From: a virus
DNA length: 35,691 nt
Virus record (IMG/VR): IMGVR_UViG_3300044802_000057
Coordinates: 1-35,691 of that record
Direction: 5' to 3' (one strand)
Positions 7,857 to 17,982 of this stretch are shown piece by piece (positions within the stretch are counted from its first letter, which is position 1; every line of letters starts with the position of its first letter). The notes beneath the pieces are model-generated. The model saw only the letters and a list, made by a program, of their open reading frames with translations, did no database searches and was not told the origin of the DNA. The position numbers were made by a program, and so were the translations under genes.

Positions 7857-8182
7857 GCTGGATCGGAGTAGACCTCGACGGAACCCTCGCCCACTACGGC
7901 GATTGGAAGGGCATTGATCACATCGGAAAGCCGATTCCCCTGATGCTCGCCAGAGTCAAGAAGTGGATCGCCGAGGGCCAGACCGTAAAGATTTTCACGG
8001 CCAGGGCGTGCAGGGGAGAAGAAGGAATAAAACCAGTCCGCGAGTGGCTGAAAGAAAACGGGCTCCCCGGGGACCTGGTAGTCACCAATCAGAAGGATTT
8101 CGGGATGATCTCGTGTTGGGACGATCGCGCCGTACAGGTCATTCCCAATACCGGCCGAAGAGCCGACGGGGGGGGGAAATAA
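7853..8182 (+). CDS. HAD-superfamily phosphatase-like protein
   Basis: 109 residues from the ATG at 7853 (MSWIGVDLDGTLAHY). Motif I is DLDGT (nucleophile Asp7, Asp9), motif II is the Thr in KIFTARA (Thr49), motif III may be Lys81, and motif IV is WDDRA (Asp90/Asp91). This is a compact, capless HAD hydrolase such as phages use as nucleotide or polynucleotide 3'-phosphatases. The substrate cannot be told. The gene starts by ATGA overlap with the 49-residue gene and ends inside a G9 tract (8168-8176) that also forms the ribosome binding site of the next gene. Confidence 0.85.
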   Translation: MSWIGVDLDGTLAHYGDWKGIDHIGKPIPLMLARVKKWIAEGQTVKIFTARACRGEEGIKPVREWLKENGLPGDLVVTNQKDFGMISCWDDRAVQVIPNTGRRADGGGK

Positions 8183-8418
8183 TGGACAGTAACATACAAG
8201 CCTTTGCACGAATTCAGGTCATCGTTGAAATCAAAGCCGGCGTATGGGCCGGAAATTCCAGCGTTGATCAGTTATTCGAATCCTCAGCCAGGGAGGCCAA
8301 GGCCCGCGTTTTAGCCCTGGTTCAAAAAGGCAATCCCGAGGCGAGAGTTCTCGGCGAGCCCGTCGTAATCGCCGTCCTCGGACGCGAATTCCGACGGGAA
8401 GAAGGGGGGGAAACATGA
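8182..8418 (+). CDS. Hypothetical protein (78 aa)
   Basis: ATG at 8182 overlaps the HAD stop by one base (TAATG) and is preceded by a G9 run acting as Shine-Dalgarno. The 78-residue product resembles an alternating beta/alpha small domain (RIQVIVEIKAGVWAG, then a helix EAKARVLALVQKG and a strand PVVIAVLGREFRR). It ends in a G7 tract (8404-8410) before the next coupled start. Not recognised. Confidence 0.6.
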   Translation: MDSNIQAFARIQVIVEIKAGVWAGNSSVDQLFESSAREAKARVLALVQKGNPEARVLGEPVVIAVLGREFRREEGGET

Positions 8419-8708
8419 ATCAGAAGGTGGCCAAGCAGATCAGGAAGATCGTTTTTGGCGACAACTCGCAGAGGGTTGTGAACTACGGGGCCATCGAACG
8501 GCCGGGCAAAGGAAGACGCAAGGTTTTGGTGCAGCAAATCATCTGCCGGGGCGACCGGGGAACGTACCGCGATGCCAAGCGTTTCTTCAGATTCGCCCGG
8601 CATGAAGGCGTAAGCCTGAAGGTTACGCTCGCGGCGATCGCCATGGAGTGCAGCCGGCGGGAGGGCATGAAGGGTGAAGTACAGAGCCCCGGAGCCAATC
8701 TTAGTTGA
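8415..8708 (+). CDS. Basic hypothetical protein (97 aa)
   Basis: 97 residues starting MNQKVAKQIRKIVFGD, overlapping the preceding stop as ATGA with GGGGGGGAAAC upstream. It is strongly basic (many Arg/Lys), with a helix near residues 50-75 (YRDAKRFFRFARHEGVSLK), so nucleic-acid binding is plausible, but no fold is recognised. Its 3' end overlaps the next gene by 35 bases. Confidence 0.6.
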   Translation: MNQKVAKQIRKIVFGDNSQRVVNYGAIERPGKGRRKVLVQQIICRGDRGTYRDAKRFFRFARHEGVSLKVTLAAIAMECSRREGMKGEVQSPGANLS

Positions 8709-8919
8709 CGGAACAATTCTGCATCGGGAAGGGACGTTTTTCATGCTGACAAAACGCGAGAATCCTCACACCGGGCGAACCGAATGGTGCCTGGTTTCCA
8801 TCAGCTCCGGGAAGGTCCTGGAGTGGTTCGGCCCGAAAGAGCCGAGCGACGGGACCGTGAAGAAGTCTGAAGAGCGGGTCCAATGGTTCAAACACAAGGG
8901 CGAAGCGGGGGGGAAATAG
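8674..8919 (+). CDS. Hypothetical protein (81 aa)
   Basis: 81 residues with a GTG start at 8674 (KYRAPEPILVDGTILHREG); GGGAGGG lies at good spacing upstream inside the preceding gene. The protein looks beta-rich, with Trp residues (EWCLVSISSGKVLEWFG) and a Gly-Gly-Lys C-terminus encoded by a G7 tract (8907-8913). That tract also forms the ribosome binding site of the next gene. No family recognised. Confidence 0.6.
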   Translation: MKYRAPEPILVDGTILHREGTFFMLTKRENPHTGRTEWCLVSISSGKVLEWFGPKEPSDGTVKKSEERVQWFKHKGEAGGK

Positions 8920-8921
8920 CC

Positions 8922-9164
8922 ATGGCCAAAGAAGTCAAAGCACAGTTTTATTTCCGGTGTCGCGAGTGCCAGGCCAAGGTCTACCGGCTGCCGGACTCCG
9001 AATTCTGGATGACCTTTCCTACCGATTGCCCGGACTGTAAAACGCCCGGCTCCATGGTGCCCGAAGTGAGTTTCCACCCGGACAACGATAGCGACAACGT
9101 CGTCGACCGGATAGGGCGAACCCATCGAGAAAAGGACAGGTTAATCGACAGCATAGGCGAATAG
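8922..9164 (+). CDS. Zinc-ribbon protein (80 aa)
   Basis: 80 residues from the ATG at 8922 (MAKEVKAQFYFRCRECQAK), behind GGGGGGGAAATAGCC. The two pairs CREC (about residues 13-16) and CPDC (about 36-39) give a four-cysteine zinc ribbon; the C-terminal half is acidic then charged (HPDNDSDNVVDRIGRTHREK). The frame is open to 8883, which is shadow of the previous gene. It is the last small gene before the portal. Probably a nucleic-acid or protein-binding accessory protein. Confidence 0.65.
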   Translation: MAKEVKAQFYFRCRECQAKVYRLPDSEFWMTFPTDCPDCKTPGSMVPEVSFHPDNDSDNVVDRIGRTHREKDRLIDSIGE

Positions 9165-9197
9165 ATCATTTTTGCCCGGGGGGAGCGGGAGAGGGAA

Positions 9198-11321
9198 ATG
9201 TTACAGGTTCTTAGCAACGCGGATATCACAGCCCGAGAAGAAAAAGAAGCTGATACGCAGCTCGCCATCCGCGACGTTACCGCGAGTACGGAGAACCCTG
9301 TCGTTTCCGGCCTGGCTGCCCATATTCGCGTTTGTTGGGAGCAAGCCAAACGGGCGAAGATCATCCACGAACAGCAAATCCTCAAGAATCTCCGCCAGAA
9401 GGAAGGGATCTACGAGCCGCAGAAGCTCGCCGCGATCCGGAGCATGAAGTCTTCCGAAGTCTTCATGAAGCTCACCGACCGCAAATGCCGCGACGCCAAG
9501 GACTGGATCAAGGACATCATCTTTCAGCCGGGCACCAAGCCCTGGACGATCGAACCCACGCCCGTACCGGAGGTTCCCGAATGGGTAAAGCAGCACGCGG
9601 AAGTGAAGCTCCTCCAGCAGCGCATGGGCGAGATCATGCAGCAAGCCGCCCAAACCGGCCAGCAAGTTCCCATGGAGATCATTCCCGAGATCATCAAACA
9701 GGAAATGCCCGGCATCATGGAGCACCTGGAAAAGGAGATCAAGGACGAGGCCAAAGACATCGCCAAGAAGATGGAGCAAGAGATCGATGACGAGCTCATC
9801 GAGGGAGGATTCTACACCGCCCTGGCGGACGCCATCCCCGACATCATTCTTCACACCGGCTTTATCAAAGGCCCCATCTATCGCAAGGTTAAGGTCCCCA
9901 AGCTGGTCGCCGACCAGAAGACCGGCCGGAAGCGCCTGCAGGTCACCGACGAGATCCGCGGGGAATACGAGAAGGTCAACCCTCTCGATATCTACCCGGC
10001 TCCGGACGCGACCGGCATAAACGACGGGTACCTGATTGAAAAGACTTCGCTGAACGGGGTCCAACTCCAGGAGTTGCGCGGCGTCCCCACCTATGACACC
10101 GAAGCGATCGACAAGGTCCTCGAACTGTACGGCCAGAACGGCCTCCGCGAATGGACGGCGATCGACACGCAGCGCGCCGAGGTCGAACACCGCGACCAGA
10201 TGGTCATCCACGACACGACCAAGATCGATTGTCTTGTCTTTTGGGGAGAGATTCAGGGCAAGGTCCTTCTTCAATGGGGAATGAGCCTCAAGGAAGTGCC
10301 CGAACCTTTCAGCTTTTATCACGTCTGCGTCTGGCTCATCGGCAACTACGTCATCAAGGCCATGCTCAACCCGGATGATCTCGGAGAAAGGCCCTACTAC
10401 AAGGCCGGATTCGATGAGACGGACGGAAACTGCTATTGGGCGCGAGGCCTGCCCCAGGTCATCGATCACATCCAGGAACCAGCCAATGCGGTCGCCCGGC
10501 ACATCGTCAACAACGTCGGGTTTGCCGCCGGCCCCATGGTCGAGATCAACGAGGACCGGGTACCCGGAGCCGGAGATCCCGCTCCGAATCGGGTATGGAG
10601 GTCCAATAACGACACTATGGCAACGGGCGCGCCGGCCATCCAGGTCTGGAGCATCCCGCTCATTGCCGACAAGCTCATGGAGATCTTCGATAAATATCGA
10701 AAGATGATGGATGAAGATTCGGGGATCCCCGCGTATGCCCACGGAGACGCCGATGTCGGCGGAGGAGGGGACACGGCCAGCGGCCTTTCCATGCTCATGA
10801 CCGCCGCATCGAGGGGAATCAAAGGCATCATCCGGACGATCGATCAGCACATGATCGAGCCCGTCATCCGCTACAAATATTACCGGAACATTCAGAAGGT
10901 CGAGAACGCCGCCCTCGTCGGAGACTACAAAGTCAAAGCGATCGGCAGCTCTTCCCTCATTGCCAAGGAACAACAAGCGATGAGGAGAGGCGAATTCCTG
11001 AAGACGACCCAAAACACGATCGATTACTCGATCATGGGCCCCGAAGGACGCCGCTATCTCCTCGAAGATACTGCTCGGGCGCTGGAGCTGGATCCGGAAA
11101 AGGCGGTCCCCGAGGCGCCGCCGCAACCCCCCCAGGCCGGTATGGTCCCCGGGGGTCCATCAAATCCGCCTCTCGTTCCAACGCCCGGCAGCCCCATTCC
11201 CCAAGGCGCGGGCCCGGCACAGCCGGCAACCCTCGACCAGGCCGGGAACCCGGTAGCCGGGAAGGATTTCAATTTACAGAGGAAGGAGGCCGCACCCCTT
11301 GGACAACAAGCGAACGCCTAA
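9198..11321 (+). CDS. Portal protein (podovirus type)
   Basis: 707 residues. It forms the dodecameric channel at one head vertex through which DNA is packaged and ejected. Evidence is length, position after terminase and before scaffold/capsid, and internal portal-like segments: DIYPAPDATGINDGYLIEKT (about 270-290), CLVFWGEIQGKVLLQWG, and the conserved NAVARHIVNN (about 432-441) with following VGFAAGPM. The segment about 130-205 is an unusually long Gln/Glu/Lys-rich helical insertion (probable coiled coil). The C-terminal about 60 residues are Pro/Gly-rich. GGGAGAGGGAA precedes the ATG. The next gene starts inside its last 23 bases. Confidence 0.85.
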   Translation: MLQVLSNADITAREEKEADTQLAIRDVTASTENPVVSGLAAHIRVCWEQAKRAKIIHEQQILKNLRQKEGIYEPQKLAAIRSMKSSEVFMKLTDRKCRDAKDWIKDIIFQPGTKPWTIEPTPVPEVPEWVKQHAEVKLLQQRMGEIMQQAAQTGQQVPMEIIPEIIKQEMPGIMEHLEKEIKDEAKDIAKKMEQEIDDELIEGGFYTALADAIPDIILHTGFIKGPIYRKVKVPKLVADQKTGRKRLQVTDEIRGEYEKVNPLDIYPAPDATGINDGYLIEKTSLNGVQLQELRGVPTYDTEAIDKVLELYGQNGLREWTAIDTQRAEVEHRDQMVIHDTTKIDCLVFWGEIQGKVLLQWGMSLKEVPEPFSFYHVCVWLIGNYVIKAMLNPDDLGERPYYKAGFDETDGNCYWARGLPQVIDHIQEPANAVARHIVNNVGFAAGPMVEINEDRVPGAGDPAPNRVWRSNNDTMATGAPAIQVWSIPLIADKLMEIFDKYRKMMDEDSGIPAYAHGDADVGGGGDTASGLSMLMTAASRGIKGIIRTIDQHMIEPVIRYKYYRNIQKVENAALVGDYKVKAIGSSSLIAKEQQAMRRGEFLKTTQNTIDYSIMGPEGRRYLLEDTARALELDPEKAVPEAPPQPPQAGMVPGGPSNPPLVPTPGSPIPQGAGPAQPATLDQAGNPVAGKDFNLQRKEAAPLGQQANA

Positions 11322-11981: not shown

Positions 11982-12821
11982 ATGATTCAGTCCATCTTTC
12001 AGATTCCCATCGTTCCCGGGCTGACCGGCGCCGACCTGGTCGCCGCCGAGGCCATTGCCGAGAGTGTAGCCGAGGCCGCAAGCGCGCCCAAGGACCAGAA
12101 AGATTACCTGGCCATCCCCATCGAGTGGGCCATTGACGGCGTCTCCGCTCCCGACGCGACCGCGGTTCTTTCCGCCACGAACAGCGTCATGATCCGCAAA
12201 TTCCGCGGGGACGTGGGAAATCAGGATGTTTTTATTCCCGTCCTCCTTCCTCCGGATAAAAAGCCCGCCTCCGCCGCAATAAAATACCGGGTCCATTTTT
12301 TCCTCACGGAGGCCGTTCAACCGAATAATGAAGGCGTCGTGTTCGCCGTCAAAAGTAACGCCCTCGCAACCCCGGATCTTCTGAGCGCCGCTCTCGGAAC
12401 CGCCTACACCTGCGAGATCACCATGCTGAACAGCGTAGCCACAGCATGGGCCGCCGCTACCCCCAAGGCAGTAGGAGACAACGTCATTCCCCTGGCCTCG
12501 CCCAATGGATTTTGGTATCAGGCTTCGGCACATTTGGGAGACTTTAACACCGGCGCCCAAGAGCCCGCATGGCCGCCCACGCCCGGGCAAACCGTTGTGG
12601 ACAATCACGTTACCTGGCGCTGCATGGGAACCAACTGCGCCCAAAACTCTCTGGTAACCACGGGCTGGAGCACGCCCTTTACCGTCCCCGGACTCTCCGC
12701 GGGAAAGCTCTTTCTCATGCTCAACTTCGCCAGAACCCAGGACGCCGCCGATGACACCTACGCGCAAAAAGTCGGCGTCGCTTTTATCGAACTGGCCTTC
12801 GATCAGGAGCCCGCGCCATGA
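11982..12821 (+). CDS. Tail or fibre-type structural protein
   Basis: 279 residues; AAGGAGGAAGC precedes the ATG. The middle part (about residues 150-215) contains the pattern W-x-VGDNVIPL-x-GFWYQAS-x-G-x-EPAWPPTPGQTVVDNHVTW, a small domain common in phage fibre and surface proteins that may bind carbohydrate. The rest is Ala-rich and beta-rich. A virion surface role is inferred. The next gene starts by ATGA overlap. Confidence 0.65.
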   Translation: MIQSIFQIPIVPGLTGADLVAAEAIAESVAEAASAPKDQKDYLAIPIEWAIDGVSAPDATAVLSATNSVMIRKFRGDVGNQDVFIPVLLPPDKKPASAAIKYRVHFFLTEAVQPNNEGVVFAVKSNALATPDLLSAALGTAYTCEITMLNSVATAWAAATPKAVGDNVIPLASPNGFWYQASAHLGDFNTGAQEPAWPPTPGQTVVDNHVTWRCMGTNCAQNSLVTTGWSTPFTVPGLSAGKLFLMLNFARTQDAADDTYAQKVGVAFIELAFDQEPAP

Positions 12822-13492
12822 GCAGGGCACTTTTTATGACCGGGAAAAGACGGGGGAGGAGTCCTTATTTATCCGTGGGCGCGGATTGTGTACTCTATCA
12901 CGCCTATTGGGACGGGACGGCCGTGGATCATTCGAGTGGGGGTAACTCCGGAGTGTTAGACGTAATTTCTTCTTATCCGGCTTTTGTACCCAACGATAGT
13001 TTGCAATTCAATAACACAGCGGGAAAGGTGGTTGTCGCCAATAAAGCCAACCTACAATTTGCCTCCGCCGGTTCTTGCTTTGCCTGGATTAAGACCTTAC
13101 AAAACGCAGATCATACGTGGATCTGCGGGAAGCACTATTCGAATTGCTACGCCTTTCTTTATGCCAATGCTCAAAGACTCGAATTTATCGCATCGGCTTC
13201 GTTTACGTTTTCTGATGACTACATAAGAACTTCAGGGGCTTGGAATTTAGCGTCGATTTGTTGGGGTGCAGCGAACGTCGATTTTTATTCAAATGCAAAC
13301 TTTGATGAAACGGTTCCCAATGCCAACACTCCTTCTGATCAAACTAACGATTTGTGGATAGGAAATGATCCATCTGGCGCAGGAACAGCTCCGGTTATGA
13401 ACTTAGGGGAAATTCTTCTCTTCAATACAAGGAAATCACAGGCGGACATCACCGCCTACTTTAACGCGACCAAAGGCCGCTACGGCCTTTAA
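12818..13492 (+). CDS. LamG/concanavalin-like lectin protein
   Basis: 224 residues, ATGA overlap with the previous gene. The order of motifs fits a LamG-type jelly roll: DSLQFNNTAGKVVVANKANL (about 59-78), SCFAWIKT, a central W-I-C-G-K region, then the characteristic ending GEILLFNTRKSQADITAYFN followed by KGRYGL. Such domains bind glycans or host surface structures. No signal peptide, so it is probably virion-attached or cytoplasmic. From about 13000 the DNA is visibly more AT-rich and uses codons (aat, gat, ttt, caa) unlike its neighbours, which suggests recent acquisition. A hairpin covers the stop codon. Confidence 0.75.
   Translation: MSRALFMTGKRRGRSPYLSVGADCVLYHAYWDGTAVDHSSGGNSGVLDVISSYPAFVPNDSLQFNNTAGKVVVANKANLQFASAGSCFAWIKTLQNADHTWICGKHYSNCYAFLYANAQRLEFIASASFTFSDDYIRTSGAWNLASICWGAANVDFYSNANFDETVPNANTPSDQTNDLWIGNDPSGAGTAPVMNLGEILLFNTRKSQADITAYFNATKGRYGL
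13472..13490 (+). terminator. Hairpin at end of lectin gene (weak terminator?)
   Basis: AAAGGCCG (13472-13479), loop CTA, CGGCCTTT (13483-13490): a perfect 8-bp stem lying on the last codons of the lectin gene. Only three T residues end the stem, so termination would be weak or it may only protect the mRNA end. Confidence 0.35.
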
Positions 13493-13543: not shown

Positions 13544-13825
13544 ATGGGAACCGAACAAGATCCAGTCTGCGACTTCAAGCCCACCCTTGTAAGCCGCGAA
13601 ACTTTTCAGGGCGCTGACGATGCCACCAAGCTGAATTACCTGTTCGATATCCATTGCGTCGTCGTGACCAACCAGAACCAGGTGAGGAAGTATATCGAAC
13701 ATCAGCGTGCCCGGGACCGGAGGATCAACGCCGTAATCACTTCCACCCTGGCCACTCTCGTAAGCATCCTCGCCGCCGTCCTCAAGCCATTTCTCGGGGG
13801 GGCCGTCTGGATGTCGAGGCCATAA
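13544..13825 (+). CDS. Small one-TM protein, possible holin
   Basis: 93 residues. AAAGGGATGATTCC precedes the ATG. Residues 27-60 are a charged amphipathic helix (DDATKLNYLFDIHCVV and QVRKYIEHQRARDRR), followed by one hydrophobic segment at residues 61-81 (INAVITSTLATLVSILAAVL) and a short tail. This layout resembles XhlA-like haemolysin/holin proteins. It lies two genes upstream of the endolysin, which fits a lysis role, but a second holin candidate exists at 17979. The call is by topology and position only. Confidence 0.5.
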   Translation: MGTEQDPVCDFKPTLVSRETFQGADDATKLNYLFDIHCVVVTNQNQVRKYIEHQRARDRRINAVITSTLATLVSILAAVLKPFLGGAVWMSRP

Positions 13826-13837
13826 CAAGGGGGGGAT

Positions 13838-14260
13838 ATGTTGACCGTTCATTCGTGGGTGGATCCGCAAACGGGAGAAACGAAGATGGTTGTAGGCCGG
13901 AAGAACGAAATGGGCGAGGCCACGGTTTACAACTTATATACCGGAACGGCCTCTCGGCTGCTTTTGGGCGGACAGATCCCGGCCGAGTACGTTCTCACCA
14001 TCCCCTACGATATGTCGGGGGAATTCGAGCACGCCCTCCTGGAGTGGCTGAAAAAGAAGGGGATCCGGCATGACAACGACGCGCGGATCGAGGGAACCCT
14101 TGAGGCGACCCGGAAACACCTGGAGGACCTGCGCGAGCTGCTAAAACTCACGCCGCTGAAAGTTTATGAAGAGCGGCAAAACAAGCCGCCCCTGGGGCCA
14201 AGAAACTCCGGGTTATATGGTGAGCTACACGGTGAGGTACATGAGCCACATGAGCCCTGA
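13838..14260 (+). CDS. Hypothetical protein (140 aa)
   Basis: 140 residues. A G7 run (13829-13835) directly upstream serves as ribosome binding site. The N-terminal part is beta-rich (VHSWVDPQTGETKMVVGRKN), followed by a helical middle (residues 62-110, GEFEHALLEWLKKKGIRHDN) and a short Glu/His/Pro repeat at the end (GELHGEVHEPHEP). It sits between the holin candidate and the endolysin and overlaps the latter, so a lysis-module role is possible. No family recognised. Confidence 0.55.
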   Translation: MLTVHSWVDPQTGETKMVVGRKNEMGEATVYNLYTGTASRLLLGGQIPAEYVLTIPYDMSGEFEHALLEWLKKKGIRHDNDARIEGTLEATRKHLEDLRELLKLTPLKVYEERQNKPPLGPRNSGLYGELHGEVHEPHEP

Positions 14261-14702
14261 AACGCTTGATCTTATGCCGCTGGTACCCGAGTGCAGCCAC
14301 GAGAAGATGATCGCCGTGGCCAAGACCATTTGGGGCGAAGCAAGAGGCGAACCCATCGAGGGCCAGATCGCGGTCGCGTGCGTCATCCGGAACCGCGTGA
14401 ATGACCCCGCCTGGTGGGGAAGCAGCTTTGAGGAAGTCTGCCTGAAATCCGGGCAGTTCTCCTGTTGGAAAGAGGAAAAGGCGCAGCTCGACGATCTCGA
14501 TGTCTGCAAGGAGCCCTCGGGCCGGCAATGCCTGTGGGTGGCGATCGGAGTGGTTTACAACTACCTCGAAGACATCACCCGGGGAGCTGATCATTACCTG
14601 GCGAAGTGGATGCTCGACAAGGGAGTGGCCCCGAAATGGGCGACCACGAACAAGTGGAGCGCCGAAATAGGTCACCAAGTCTTTTACAAAATCGGACCAT
14701 AA
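14241..14702 (+). CDS. Endolysin, SleB-type cell-wall hydrolase
   Basis: 153 residues from ATG 14241. The sequence EKMIAVAKTIWGEARGEP (about 21-38) with GQIAVACVIRNRVNDPAWWG and then KSGQFSCWK is the SleB/CwlJ Hydrolase_2 signature; Glu33 in WGEARGE is the expected catalytic acid. Such enzymes cleave the glycan strands of peptidoglycan as lytic transglycosylases. No signal peptide, so release needs a holin. In-frame alternatives are ATGs at 14217 and 14166; I chose 14241 because GGTGAGG lies just upstream and the overlap with the previous gene is smallest. The call is good; the start is uncertain. Confidence 0.85.
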   Translation: MSHMSPETLDLMPLVPECSHEKMIAVAKTIWGEARGEPIEGQIAVACVIRNRVNDPAWWGSSFEEVCLKSGQFSCWKEEKAQLDDLDVCKEPSGRQCLWVAIGVVYNYLEDITRGADHYLAKWMLDKGVAPKWATTNKWSAEIGHQVFYKIGP

Positions 14703-14711
14703 GGAGGTCTC

Positions 14712-15146
14712 ATGTTTCACGCAAAGTGGCGAAATTACAGTCCCCTGGACAAAGTTCTGGTTTTCTTCCTCGCGCTCATGACGCTCGTCGCGATCTTCAT
14801 GGCAGCCTGCCCGGCCAAACCGGCCCACGCCATGGGACCGCTCTCGGTCACGCTTCACACCCTGGCCTGGGATCGGGAGGCGGACCCGCTGGTAACCGGC
14901 TACTACGTTTATTGGCGGACCACAGGGACCACGCCCTGGCTGAATACACAGAGATCCGTGGCCGTTCTCCAGCCGGCGGTCGGCACAATCCCGACCTTTG
15001 ATCTTTCAACCTTCAATCTGCCAAATGGCAATTACGATATTTGCGCGACGGCGATCGATGCGGCCGGTGACGAGAGTGGCCCCTCTGCGGTCCTCCCTTT
15101 TACGGTGTACTTACCTGCATTCCCTATGAGTTTGCGCAAGCAGTAA
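14712..15146 (+). CDS. Exported FN3-domain protein 1, possible lipoprotein
   Basis: 144 residues; AAGGAGGTCTC precedes the ATG. Hydrophobic residues 15-32 form a signal segment ending FMAAC at 29-33, a lipobox-like site (Cys33). An alternative signal peptidase I site follows Ala40 (PAHA). The mature part is one fibronectin type III-like domain: LAWDREADPLVTGYYVYWRT at its start and GNYDICATAIDAAGDESGPS near its end. It is paralogous to the next exported protein. Phage-made envelope proteins can block superinfection or act in lysis; the function here is not known. Sure of export and FN3, unsure of lipidation. Confidence 0.75.
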   Translation: MFHAKWRNYSPLDKVLVFFLALMTLVAIFMAACPAKPAHAMGPLSVTLHTLAWDREADPLVTGYYVYWRTTGTTPWLNTQRSVAVLQPAVGTIPTFDLSTFNLPNGNYDICATAIDAAGDESGPSAVLPFTVYLPAFPMSLRKQ

Positions 15147-15181
15147 CCGCGGCGATCAATTTCGCGACGGCGAACAATGGA

Positions 15182-15250
15182 GTGCCGAAGAAGACGCAGC
15201 CGTACATTTTGAATTCGATCATGAAGCGGATCCCCTGGTGTGCTCAATGA
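15182..15250 (+). CDS. Possible 22-codon leader ORF or gene remnant
   Basis: A frame in the 100-base gap between the two FN3 genes stays open from before 15146 to TGA at 15248-15250, where it overlaps the ATG of the next gene (ATGA). Only GTG 15182 (MPKKTQPYILNSIMKRIPWC) offers a start, with a poor ribosome binding site. It may be a coupling leader, the remnant of a degraded gene, or chance. Confidence 0.2.
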   Translation: MPKKTQPYILNSIMKRIPWCAQ

Positions 15251-15858
15251 AGAAATACAGTCTCCTCGTATTCGGCCTGATTCTCTTTTACGCGTTTTTC
15301 CCCGCGAAACCCGCACGGGCCGACGTTGTCGTCGAGTGGGACCGGCAGGGCGATCCAACCGTACTCAACTATTTCGTCTACTGGCGCCCGCAGATCAAGG
15401 CTACCTCGACCAGCTCCCTGACTGTGAGTAATGGCCCGAAAGTCTTTGTTACCCAGGCCGGCCTTCCCTTTGTTATGGGGAGCCGGGTTATCGCCTCCTC
15501 CAACCCCGCGCCCGATGCCCCGATAAATTACATGGAGGGAGCGGTGACGGATTATTCGGATGTCAATCTGACCGTGAATGTCGATTGGTCCGTCGCGGTC
15601 AACGACCCGGCCGGCGGCCCGGGCCCCTTCGCGACCTGGGAACTGGCCTGGGATTGGGGGTTTGCCCTGAGATCGGACCTGATCCCTCAGCCCGCCGACG
15701 GTGCTGTGCCCTCTTACCAGCTTTCAACCCTGGCCCTTGCCGGGGGAAATTATGAGGTTTGCGTGACCGCGATCGATGCGGCCGGCAATGAAAGTAATTG
15801 GAGCAACTCTGCACCTTTTTATATTCCTGCCTCCCCTCACAATTTGAGGGCGCAGTAA
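15247..15858 (+). CDS. Exported FN3-domain protein 2 with inserted tail-type domain
   Basis: 203 residues from ATG 15247 (MKKYSLLVFGLILFYAFFPA); a GTG at 15238 in frame is possible. A classic signal peptide ends PARA after residue 25. The FN3-like parts are VVEWDRQGDPTVLNYFVYWR (28-47) and GNYEVCVTAIDAAGNESNWS near the end, clearly paralogous to FN3 protein 1. Between them, residues about 53-133 hold a different module: SLTVSNGPKVFVTQAGLPFV, then INYMEGAVTDYSDVNLTVNV and FATWELA. That pattern I know from phage tail and virion proteins. So a tail-type domain has been inserted into an exported FN3 protein. No lipobox. Function unknown. Confidence 0.75.
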   Translation: MKKYSLLVFGLILFYAFFPAKPARADVVVEWDRQGDPTVLNYFVYWRPQIKATSTSSLTVSNGPKVFVTQAGLPFVMGSRVIASSNPAPDAPINYMEGAVTDYSDVNLTVNVDWSVAVNDPAGGPGPFATWELAWDWGFALRSDLIPQPADGAVPSYQLSTLALAGGNYEVCVTAIDAAGNESNWSNSAPFYIPASPHNLRAQ

Positions 15859-15871
15859 AGGAGAAATCGAA

Positions 15872-16891
15872 GTGGCTCACATCCCGACCCTTTTTCAGCG
15901 CCCGGACAAGATCGAGAAACCACTCTATGTCCTGACCACGGTCTTCAACTCGGTCCGATACCGATCGCGCTGGAAGATTTACGAAGACTTCGCCCGGTCC
16001 TGCGAAAATACCGGCGCGATTCTTTACACCTGCGAAGTTGCGTTCGGAGAGCGGGAGTTTGCCATCACCCAGGCCGGAAATCCCCGTCACCTGCAGCTCC
16101 GGACCTCCCACGAGCTTTTCTATAAGGAAAACACCCAAAATCTCCTGGCTCAACGGCTCCCGGCCGATGCGGCATATATCGCCTGCATGGATGCCGATAT
16201 CGCTTTGATGCGGAGGGATTGGGCGGATGAGACCATTCACCAGCTCCAGCATTTTCCCGTCGTTCAAATGTTCTCGGAGATCCACAACCTGGACAGTAAT
16301 CACGAGCTCATGAGCGGCGGCCAGAGCTTCGCGACCACCTGGAAGAAACAGGAAATACAGAAGTTTCAGAAGATGATGGACCCGAGCTGCCAGCCGTATC
16401 CCTACTCCATGACCGGAGTGAAATATCCCGGACCCCCGGGCGGAGATTTTGCGTACAGGAGAGAAGCCTGGGACGGCCTGGGCGGCCTCCTGGATTTCTG
16501 CGTCCTGGGAAGCGCCGACCTGTATATGGCTTTTGGCCTGATCGGCCTGGCGGATAAGCTGCCCTGGAAGAAATTTCACCCGGCTTACCCCGAGCAAATC
16601 GTCAACTGGATGCGCAGGGCGCAGACCACTCAATGGCAAGAGCGGCCGCTGGCCGGAAACGTCGGCGTCGTCCCCGGCCTGGCCATGCACTACTGGCACG
16701 GTTCCTGGGTGGGGCGGCAGTACAACACGCGGAACAACATTCTGATCCGAAATCAGTTCAACCCGCTGGTCGATCTCAAAAGGGACCGGCAGGGTCTATA
16801 CCAGCTAACGTCTAACAATCCTCAGCTCCGGCGCGATATTCAGAAGTATTTCAGCGATCGGAACGAGGACATTCCAACAATCAAGTCTTAG
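15872..16891 (+). CDS. GT-A fold glycosyltransferase
   Basis: 339 residues, GTG start at 15872 behind AAAGGAGAAATCGAA. The N-terminal strand KPLYVLTTVFNSVRYRSR (16-33) begins a GT-A Rossmann domain; CMDADIALMRRDW carries the DxD metal/nucleotide-sugar motif at Asp107-Asp109. GGDFAYRREAWDGLGGLLDF is an acceptor-side motif, and HYWHGSWVGRQY plus LKRDRQGLYQLTSNNP near the end match a family often found in phage and bacterial genomes. It would transfer a sugar from a nucleotide donor, perhaps to a phage or host surface structure; the target is unknown. No membrane segment, so cytoplasmic. Confidence 0.8.
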   Translation: MAHIPTLFQRPDKIEKPLYVLTTVFNSVRYRSRWKIYEDFARSCENTGAILYTCEVAFGEREFAITQAGNPRHLQLRTSHELFYKENTQNLLAQRLPADAAYIACMDADIALMRRDWADETIHQLQHFPVVQMFSEIHNLDSNHELMSGGQSFATTWKKQEIQKFQKMMDPSCQPYPYSMTGVKYPGPPGGDFAYRREAWDGLGGLLDFCVLGSADLYMAFGLIGLADKLPWKKFHPAYPEQIVNWMRRAQTTQWQERPLAGNVGVVPGLAMHYWHGSWVGRQYNTRNNILIRNQFNPLVDLKRDRQGLYQLTSNNPQLRRDIQKYFSDRNEDIPTIKS

Positions 16892-17205: not shown

Positions 17206-17982
17206 ATGAAAGCTCATCCATTTGGCTGGCGTAAAGATCCCTATGATCACTTTGACTGGATTCATCAGCCGTCCGGCCTCGTCGTCCCGCAGAAATTCAG
17301 CCTCGAACAATACGCCTGCAATGTCCGCGACCAGGGGAATGAAGGCTCCTGCACCGGCTTCGGCCTTGCGGGTCAATGCACTTCCGTCGCCAAGAAGATC
17401 CCCCTTCACCCGAAAGAATGGTTCTCGCCGAGAGATATCTACAACGGCGAGCGTACGGTCATGGGAACCCTCAGCTATGATTCCGGCGCCGAGCCGCGCG
17501 ACGGCTATAAGTGGATCTCCAAGATGGGACTGATTTTAGACCACTTCTGGCCCTATGTAGACGCGCCCCTCGACACCAGGCAGAGAAACCCGAAGCTCAC
17601 CCCGGCCGCCCTTCTCACCCTGCCCATCACGTACACCCGGGTCACCGGGGGAATACCGGCGATCATCGACGCCCTGGCTGCCGGTAACTTCCTGTCGATC
17701 GGCGCGCCCTGGTACGAAAACTGGATGGATATTGGCGCGAACGGCGTCCTCCCTCCCGTTGGAAAATCAGCGGTCGCCGGCGGGCACGAAACTTTCTGGT
17801 ACGGCTACGACCAAAGTACCAGCTATCTGAAAGGGCAGAACTCCTGGGGCCTCTCCTGGGGAAATGCCGGCAGGTACCTGATGCCCTTCTCGGCCATCAC
17901 CAACTTCCTCGCCGATGGCGGGTACGACGTTTATTACATCACCGTGGGCTGGAAGCCCGTCGTCCAAGGAGAGAAACCGTGA
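17206..17982 (+). CDS. C1-family (papain-like) cysteine peptidase
   Basis: 258 residues; CCTGGAGGGAAAA precedes the ATG. The papain catalytic set is intact: Gln43 (oxyanion hole) and nucleophile Cys49 in VRDQGNEGSCTGFGLAG, general base His194 in AGGHETFWYGYD, and Asn212 in KGQNSWGLSWG. There is no signal peptide and no long inhibitory propeptide; the N-terminal 35 residues are a short lead-in. In phages, C1 peptidases of this kind are uncommon but known; the substrate (host protein, virion protein or cell wall peptide) cannot be told. It overlaps the holin gene as GTGA, suggesting a link with lysis or late maturation. Confidence 0.85.
   Translation: MKAHPFGWRKDPYDHFDWIHQPSGLVVPQKFSLEQYACNVRDQGNEGSCTGFGLAGQCTSVAKKIPLHPKEWFSPRDIYNGERTVMGTLSYDSGAEPRDGYKWISKMGLILDHFWPYVDAPLDTRQRNPKLTPAALLTLPITYTRVTGGIPAIIDALAAGNFLSIGAPWYENWMDIGANGVLPPVGKSAVAGGHETFWYGYDQSTSYLKGQNSWGLSWGNAGRYLMPFSAITNFLADGGYDVYYITVGWKPVVQGEKP

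Follow-up and report, generated by a model that had tools for sequence, protein, structure and literature searches.

Paralogous FN3-like phage proteins with predicted export signals, one carrying a nested tail-fibre module, as tentative candidates for receptor masking

Why would a phage encode two adjacent small proteins with export signals, one of which carries a piece of a tail fibre? We addressed this question in a 35,691-base stretch of viral DNA (IMG/VR virus record IMGVR_UViG_3300044802_000057, positions 1 to 35,691; hereafter the window). The reading that we tentatively favour is that the two proteins, P1 and P2, are late envelope proteins that would occupy or mask a receptor or surface glycan bound by the phage's own virion proteins. 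PHROG matches in the window identified terminase (5202), portal (9198), and major capsid protein (19847) genes. The named phages nearest by portal included Rhizobium phage RHph_TM3_14A (31% identity), Roseobacter CRP-series phages, and Puniceispirillum phage HMO-2011; judged from these portal relatives, the window is therefore a fragment of an HMO-2011-type podophage genome and covers its late part. DNA relatives among named phages were not detected with the first 25 kb of the window as query. Portal searches yielded two near relatives, L088 (a short contig, 85%, ending before P1) and L089 (36%), and endolysin searches yielded none.

The genes between portal and capsid vary among the relatives compared with the window, where this interval holds a cassette of ~7.5 kb that includes P1 and P2. 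The cassette opens with a LamG lectin-like protein (12818-13492) that matches a virion-structural PHROG and lies upstream of the pair, followed by a protein with one membrane segment (13544) and an endolysin (14166..14702, plus strand; Hydrolase_2 cell-wall hydrolase, Pfam E 1.7e-16, PHROG endolysin E 2.7e-18). P1 and P2 come directly after the endolysin, a position in the late region that fits late expression. Beyond them lie a 339-aa protein (15872..16891, plus strand), a papain-like C1 peptidase (17206-17982; Pfam E 1.5e-6, PHROG peptidase), and, at 17979, a phrog_1544 protein that includes a hydrophobic segment. By eye, the 339-aa protein shows a DxD-like MDADIAL and, further on, GGDFAYRREAW, making it a possible GT-A type glycosyltransferase candidate; family and PDB sequence searches with it returned no match.

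P1 (14712..15146, plus strand; 144 aa) is preceded by the ribosome-binding site AGGAGG (14702..14707). P2 (15247..15858, plus strand; 203 aa) more likely starts at the ATG at 15247 than at a GTG at 15238, which the first-pass annotation also allowed, because GGTG stands six bases upstream of the ATG. Both frames scored as coding (+0.18 and +0.29 bits per codon for P1 and P2, against -0.43 to -0.73 for other frames). The two proteins are 51% identical in their C-terminal halves (E 8e-19) and 43% identical in their N-terminal halves (E 7e-9), have the motifs FxPAKPAxA, WDRxxDPxV, VYWR, and TAIDAAGxES in common, and end in alignable C-termini (LPAFPMSLRKQ and IPASPHNLRAQ). These data bear out the origin by tandem duplication proposed in the first-pass annotation. 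Full-length relatives of either protein were found neither in IMG/VR nor in named phages, where matches were weak, partial, or due to chance, nor in GTDB genomes, which gave only short generic matches; PDB sequence matches to P1, P2, or the inserted module were likewise short and partial.

Both N-termini resemble Sec-type signal sequences, with a positive n-region, a hydrophobic core, and an AxA cleavage site, and P1 and P2 were the only plausible signal-bearing proteins in the window. These calls, which agree with the export signals reported previously, were made with a home-made rule rather than SignalP, supplemented by hydropathy and motif scans. The predicted signal sequence of P1 spans residues 1-40 (14712..14831, plus strand) and ends in PAKPAHA, and that of P2 spans residues 1-25 (15247..15321, plus strand) and ends in PAKPARA. 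Between the paralogues the cleavage region FxPAKPAxA was kept while the n-regions diverged, which suggests selection for processing. P1 also contains a lipobox-like FMAAC that matches the older PROSITE lipobox pattern, in competition with its signal-peptidase I site AHA; the position of this site is conserved in P2, where a cysteine is lacking.

Gene order and the lipobox-like motif raise the possibility that P1 and P2 aid lysis in the periplasm, for instance by attaching to peptidoglycan or to the outer membrane in a spanin-like place. The genes lie immediately 3' of the endolysin, in a cassette that also holds the membrane protein at 13544 and the hydrophobic-segment protein at 17979. Against such a role, spanin architecture was not seen: P1 and P2 are without a C-terminal transmembrane segment, and neither an inner-membrane coiled-coil (i-spanin-like) partner nor a short proline-rich lipoprotein was found nearby. 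We know of no lysis protein that combines an FN3 domain with a fibre module. We regard lysis support as rather unlikely.

We then asked what the bodies of these proteins are. For the P1 model (residues 44-136; 14841..15119, plus strand), FN3-type domains made up practically all of the best 50 structural matches in VIA-align, with Z from 8.7 to 7.4; the best match (Z 8.7) had an rmsd of 2.4 A over 80 residues. The model was of low confidence (pLDDT 57, built on two sequences), which gives the fold match moderate weight. FN3 or Ig-like domains from the tail tips of lambda and T5 matched at Z 7.4; those domains sit within large tail proteins, whereas P1 is a small, stand-alone protein that is predicted to be exported. 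In P2, the FN3 domain is split into an N-terminal part with the strands up to C (VVVEWDRQGDPTVLNYFVYWR; 15322..15390, plus strand), delimited by alignment with P1, and a C-terminal part with strands C' to G (15658..15816, plus strand), the region of 51% identity. Sequence matches to FN3 were weak: the C-terminal part of P2 reached the Pfam fn3 profile at E 4.5e-4, below the curated cut-off (20.8 versus 25 bits), and P1 gave no fn3 hit. Since the insert interrupts the domain of P2, the fold match outweighs this miss. The FN3 fold suggested previously is supported, and we describe both proteins as FN3-like.

FN3 proteins commonly act as adhesive or surface modules. P1 and P2 might accordingly alter the surface of the infected cell in some other way, by adhesion, aggregation, or an envelope change made together with the possible glycosyltransferase, leaving phage adsorption unblocked. 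The DxD-like motif noted by eye in the adjacent 339-aa gene would fit; that neighbour, however, matches no family and lends no independent support. We judge this reading unlikely, below a role in lysis.

The first-pass annotation had described about 80 extra residues in P2 as a module otherwise found in phage tail proteins. In the alignment of P2 with P1, the extra residues directly follow strand C (YFVYWR), that is, they occupy the C-C' loop of the FN3 domain (residues about 49-137; 15391..15657, plus strand). Querying IMG/VR with an insert alignment gave 115 relatives, 80 of which were retrieved. A profile built on 56 of these phage sequences, with P2 excluded, matched P2 residues about 49-137 at E 5e-21, a value somewhat flattered by the fact that the 56 were collected via an alignment that included P2. 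P2 was the sole significant match to this profile in the window, so a second copy was not detected there. The module-bearing ORFs were almost all long phage proteins (mostly 300-2400 aa), many of them collagen-rich tail fibres in which the module often adjoins collagen-like stretches, and 7 of 10 that we scanned matched tail or tail fibre PHROG families, largely via regions outside the module. The domain search thus assigns the insert to a module of phage fibre proteins.

Structure prediction pointed the same way. AlphaFold2 predicted the insert as an independently folding beta-barrel (block pLDDT 76-97), separate from the FN3 half of P2, which was predicted poorly. Foldseek searches of the module against BFVD returned 23 hits at E<=0.001 (best E 5e-7), all phage or virus proteins, the majority of them annotated as collagen repeat or tail fibre. 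Fold matches in the PDB had Z below 8 and reflect a common small-barrel arrangement, and we did not accept them as specific relatives. Profile, fold, and conserved residues therefore identify P2 residues 49-137 with the beta-barrel module of phage tail-fibre and collagen-repeat proteins (consensus SYKATSTTSLTIGTGSKTFTTQAGLAYAVGQRVRVASTASPANYMEGTVTSYSGTTLVVNVDSTGGSGTFASWNISL), whose role in fibres is probably that of a structural connector. Unlike the tail-fibre copies, that of P2 has longer loops and lies within the FN3 domain of a 203-aa protein with a predicted export signal.

Such a fusion could in principle be an accident, in which a duplicated exported gene gained a fibre fragment by recombination and the insert has no special function. 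The fusion of FN3 and module was found in no relative, and stretches resembling FN3 coding sequence occur between the P1 and P2 genes. However, the insert is in frame and complete, retains the conserved residues of the module, and is predicted to be a well-folded domain, and codon use resembles that of other genes. We therefore consider drift improbable, the least probable of the readings discussed here.

How unusual is a signal peptide on a protein that carries this module? Apart from P2, we screened 113 non-redundant ORFs that carry the module and have a complete 5' end, and the home-made rule flagged 4. One of these, L107, was unconvincing by eye and was set aside, leaving three convincing signal peptides (L022, L023, and L164). 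As a baseline, the same rule flagged 6 of the 379 ORFs with a length of 150 aa or more in the first set of loci, so module-bearing proteins show no clear excess; the point of interest is that fibre-type proteins occur among signal-bearing ones at all. The earlier claim that export of such a protein is unusual therefore stands as regards rarity but not as regards uniqueness. The clearest example, L164 (2957-5314), is a 785-aa tail fibre with a strong ribosome-binding site and a textbook Sec signal peptide (N-terminus MKKWVFLLILSGFLLGPIFPGPLAPALA), directly followed by a T7-type attachment domain (Pfam T7-fibre 23.3 bits, just below the cut-off of 25.2; strong PHROG tail match, E 7e-30). A TTA leucine stands right before the attachment domain, so an alternative start at that point is excluded, and the same protein was present in another metagenome (L165). 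L023 encodes a signal-bearing collagen-type protein whose gene is surrounded by replication-type genes and lies apart from virion genes. In L022, the protein contains two modules, and a signal-bearing LamG protein comes next. L089, the HMO-2011-type relative of the window's phage, encodes two signal-bearing proteins after the portal (8158-8622 and 8624-9418), one of them fibre-like, with no module detected. The L022, L023, L164, and L089 proteins resemble P2 in joining a signal peptide to a fibre-type body and differ from it in being longer, in lacking the FN3 nesting, and, for L164, in having the T7-type attachment domain. Among the proteins checked after the portal in named HMO-2011-type relatives, none had a signal-like N-terminus, and a literature search limited to open-access papers found no report of exported tail fibres.

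These comparisons also bear on the possibility that P1 and P2 are virion proteins, decorating head or tail, with hydrophobic N-termini that function in assembly or are cleaved off by a protease. The genes lie between those for portal and capsid, the module occurs mostly in fibre-type proteins, FN3 domains are found in phage tail tips, and L164 shows a signal peptide ahead of an attachment domain. A papain-like peptidase is encoded nearby (17206-17982), and precedent for such processing comes from Porphyromonas phages, in which capsid proteins are reported to have signal-like N-termini thought to be cut by the prohead protease (PMC10367356). Yet the signal-peptidase I sites of P1 and P2 are textbook-like, tailed phages assemble in the cytoplasm, and an adaptor or capsid-binding domain was recognised in neither protein. 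Given that the module and the FN3 domain are virion parts, and given the L164 precedent, we consider a virion role possible and nearly as likely as masking; lysis support, other surface changes, and drift rank below.

Receptor masking remains our preferred, if tentative, explanation. Paralogy, signal sequences, FN3 fold, module identity, and genomic place are computed results, from which we infer that P1 and P2 would actually be exported and would act at the envelope or cell surface as accessory binding proteins. On this hypothesis, tandem duplication would have given two proteins with an FN3 body, with P2 carrying the tail-fibre beta-barrel within its C-C' loop. Both would be made late, reach the envelope via the Sec pathway of the host, and there occupy or mask a surface structure to which the fibres or the lectin-like virion proteins of this phage attach; this would keep progeny from being lost to infected cells and lysis debris. 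The conserved FxPAKPAxA, the fibre-module insert, and the place of the pair after the endolysin and downstream of the LamG protein are consistent with this hypothesis, as is the presence of signal-bearing fibre-module proteins in independent phages, including the L023 gene away from virion genes and the L022 gene followed by LamG. A precedent for exclusion combined with progeny protection is the small exported phage protein Llp of T5, which binds the receptor FhuA and is a periplasmic lipoprotein of the outer membrane (PMC9586334). Llp and the P1/P2 pair are alike in being small phage-encoded envelope proteins, exported in one case and predicted to be so in the other, and in their proposed receptor-masking effect; the likeness is one of effect only, and we claim no relation in structure, sequence, or fold. 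Several points argue against masking: exclusion proteins are usually made early (PMC9586334), unlike the pair, which looks late; the gene order would fit a virion or a lysis role just as readily; the module is probably a fibre connector; full-length relatives, through which a conserved function might show, were absent from the collections searched; and the export call comes from a home-made rule. PADLOC, whose models represent defence systems, gave no match.

A broader proposal is that P2 is one case among several unrelated phages that use Sec export of fibre-type proteins, by which a fibre fragment or an entire fibre would act outside the virion as a soluble or envelope-bound competitor for the phage's own receptor. 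We regard this generalization as doubtful. If export and binding to the same structure hold true, phages would be using fibre modules a second time, to block the receptor themselves; this would be a simple way to achieve superinfection exclusion, and one that the current habit of equating fibre with virion in annotation hides. The signal-bearing tail fibre of L164 and the L022, L023, and L089 proteins make the question testable beyond one contig.

The region around the end of P1 showed two further features. The -1 frame after P1 (15071-15250) is open up to a stop that overlaps the P2 start (ATGA, 15247-15250). From ~15101 its codon use is gene-like (0.225 bits per codon, a value reached by 0.2% of wrong-frame stretches), and near its beginning there is no ATG, GTG, or TTG start. 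A CCCTTTT run near 15095 is positioned to suit a -1 frameshift out of P1 into this short open frame; in a search for a programmed frameshift, downstream RNA structure was not significant (z -0.46). The gap between the two genes (15147-15246) contains a 27-base match to the strand-F region of P1 (p 0.007) and, in the frame of P2, reads FDHEADPLV, comparable to WDREADPLV in P1. Judged by these FN3-like coding pieces, the gap may be the remnant of a further copy.
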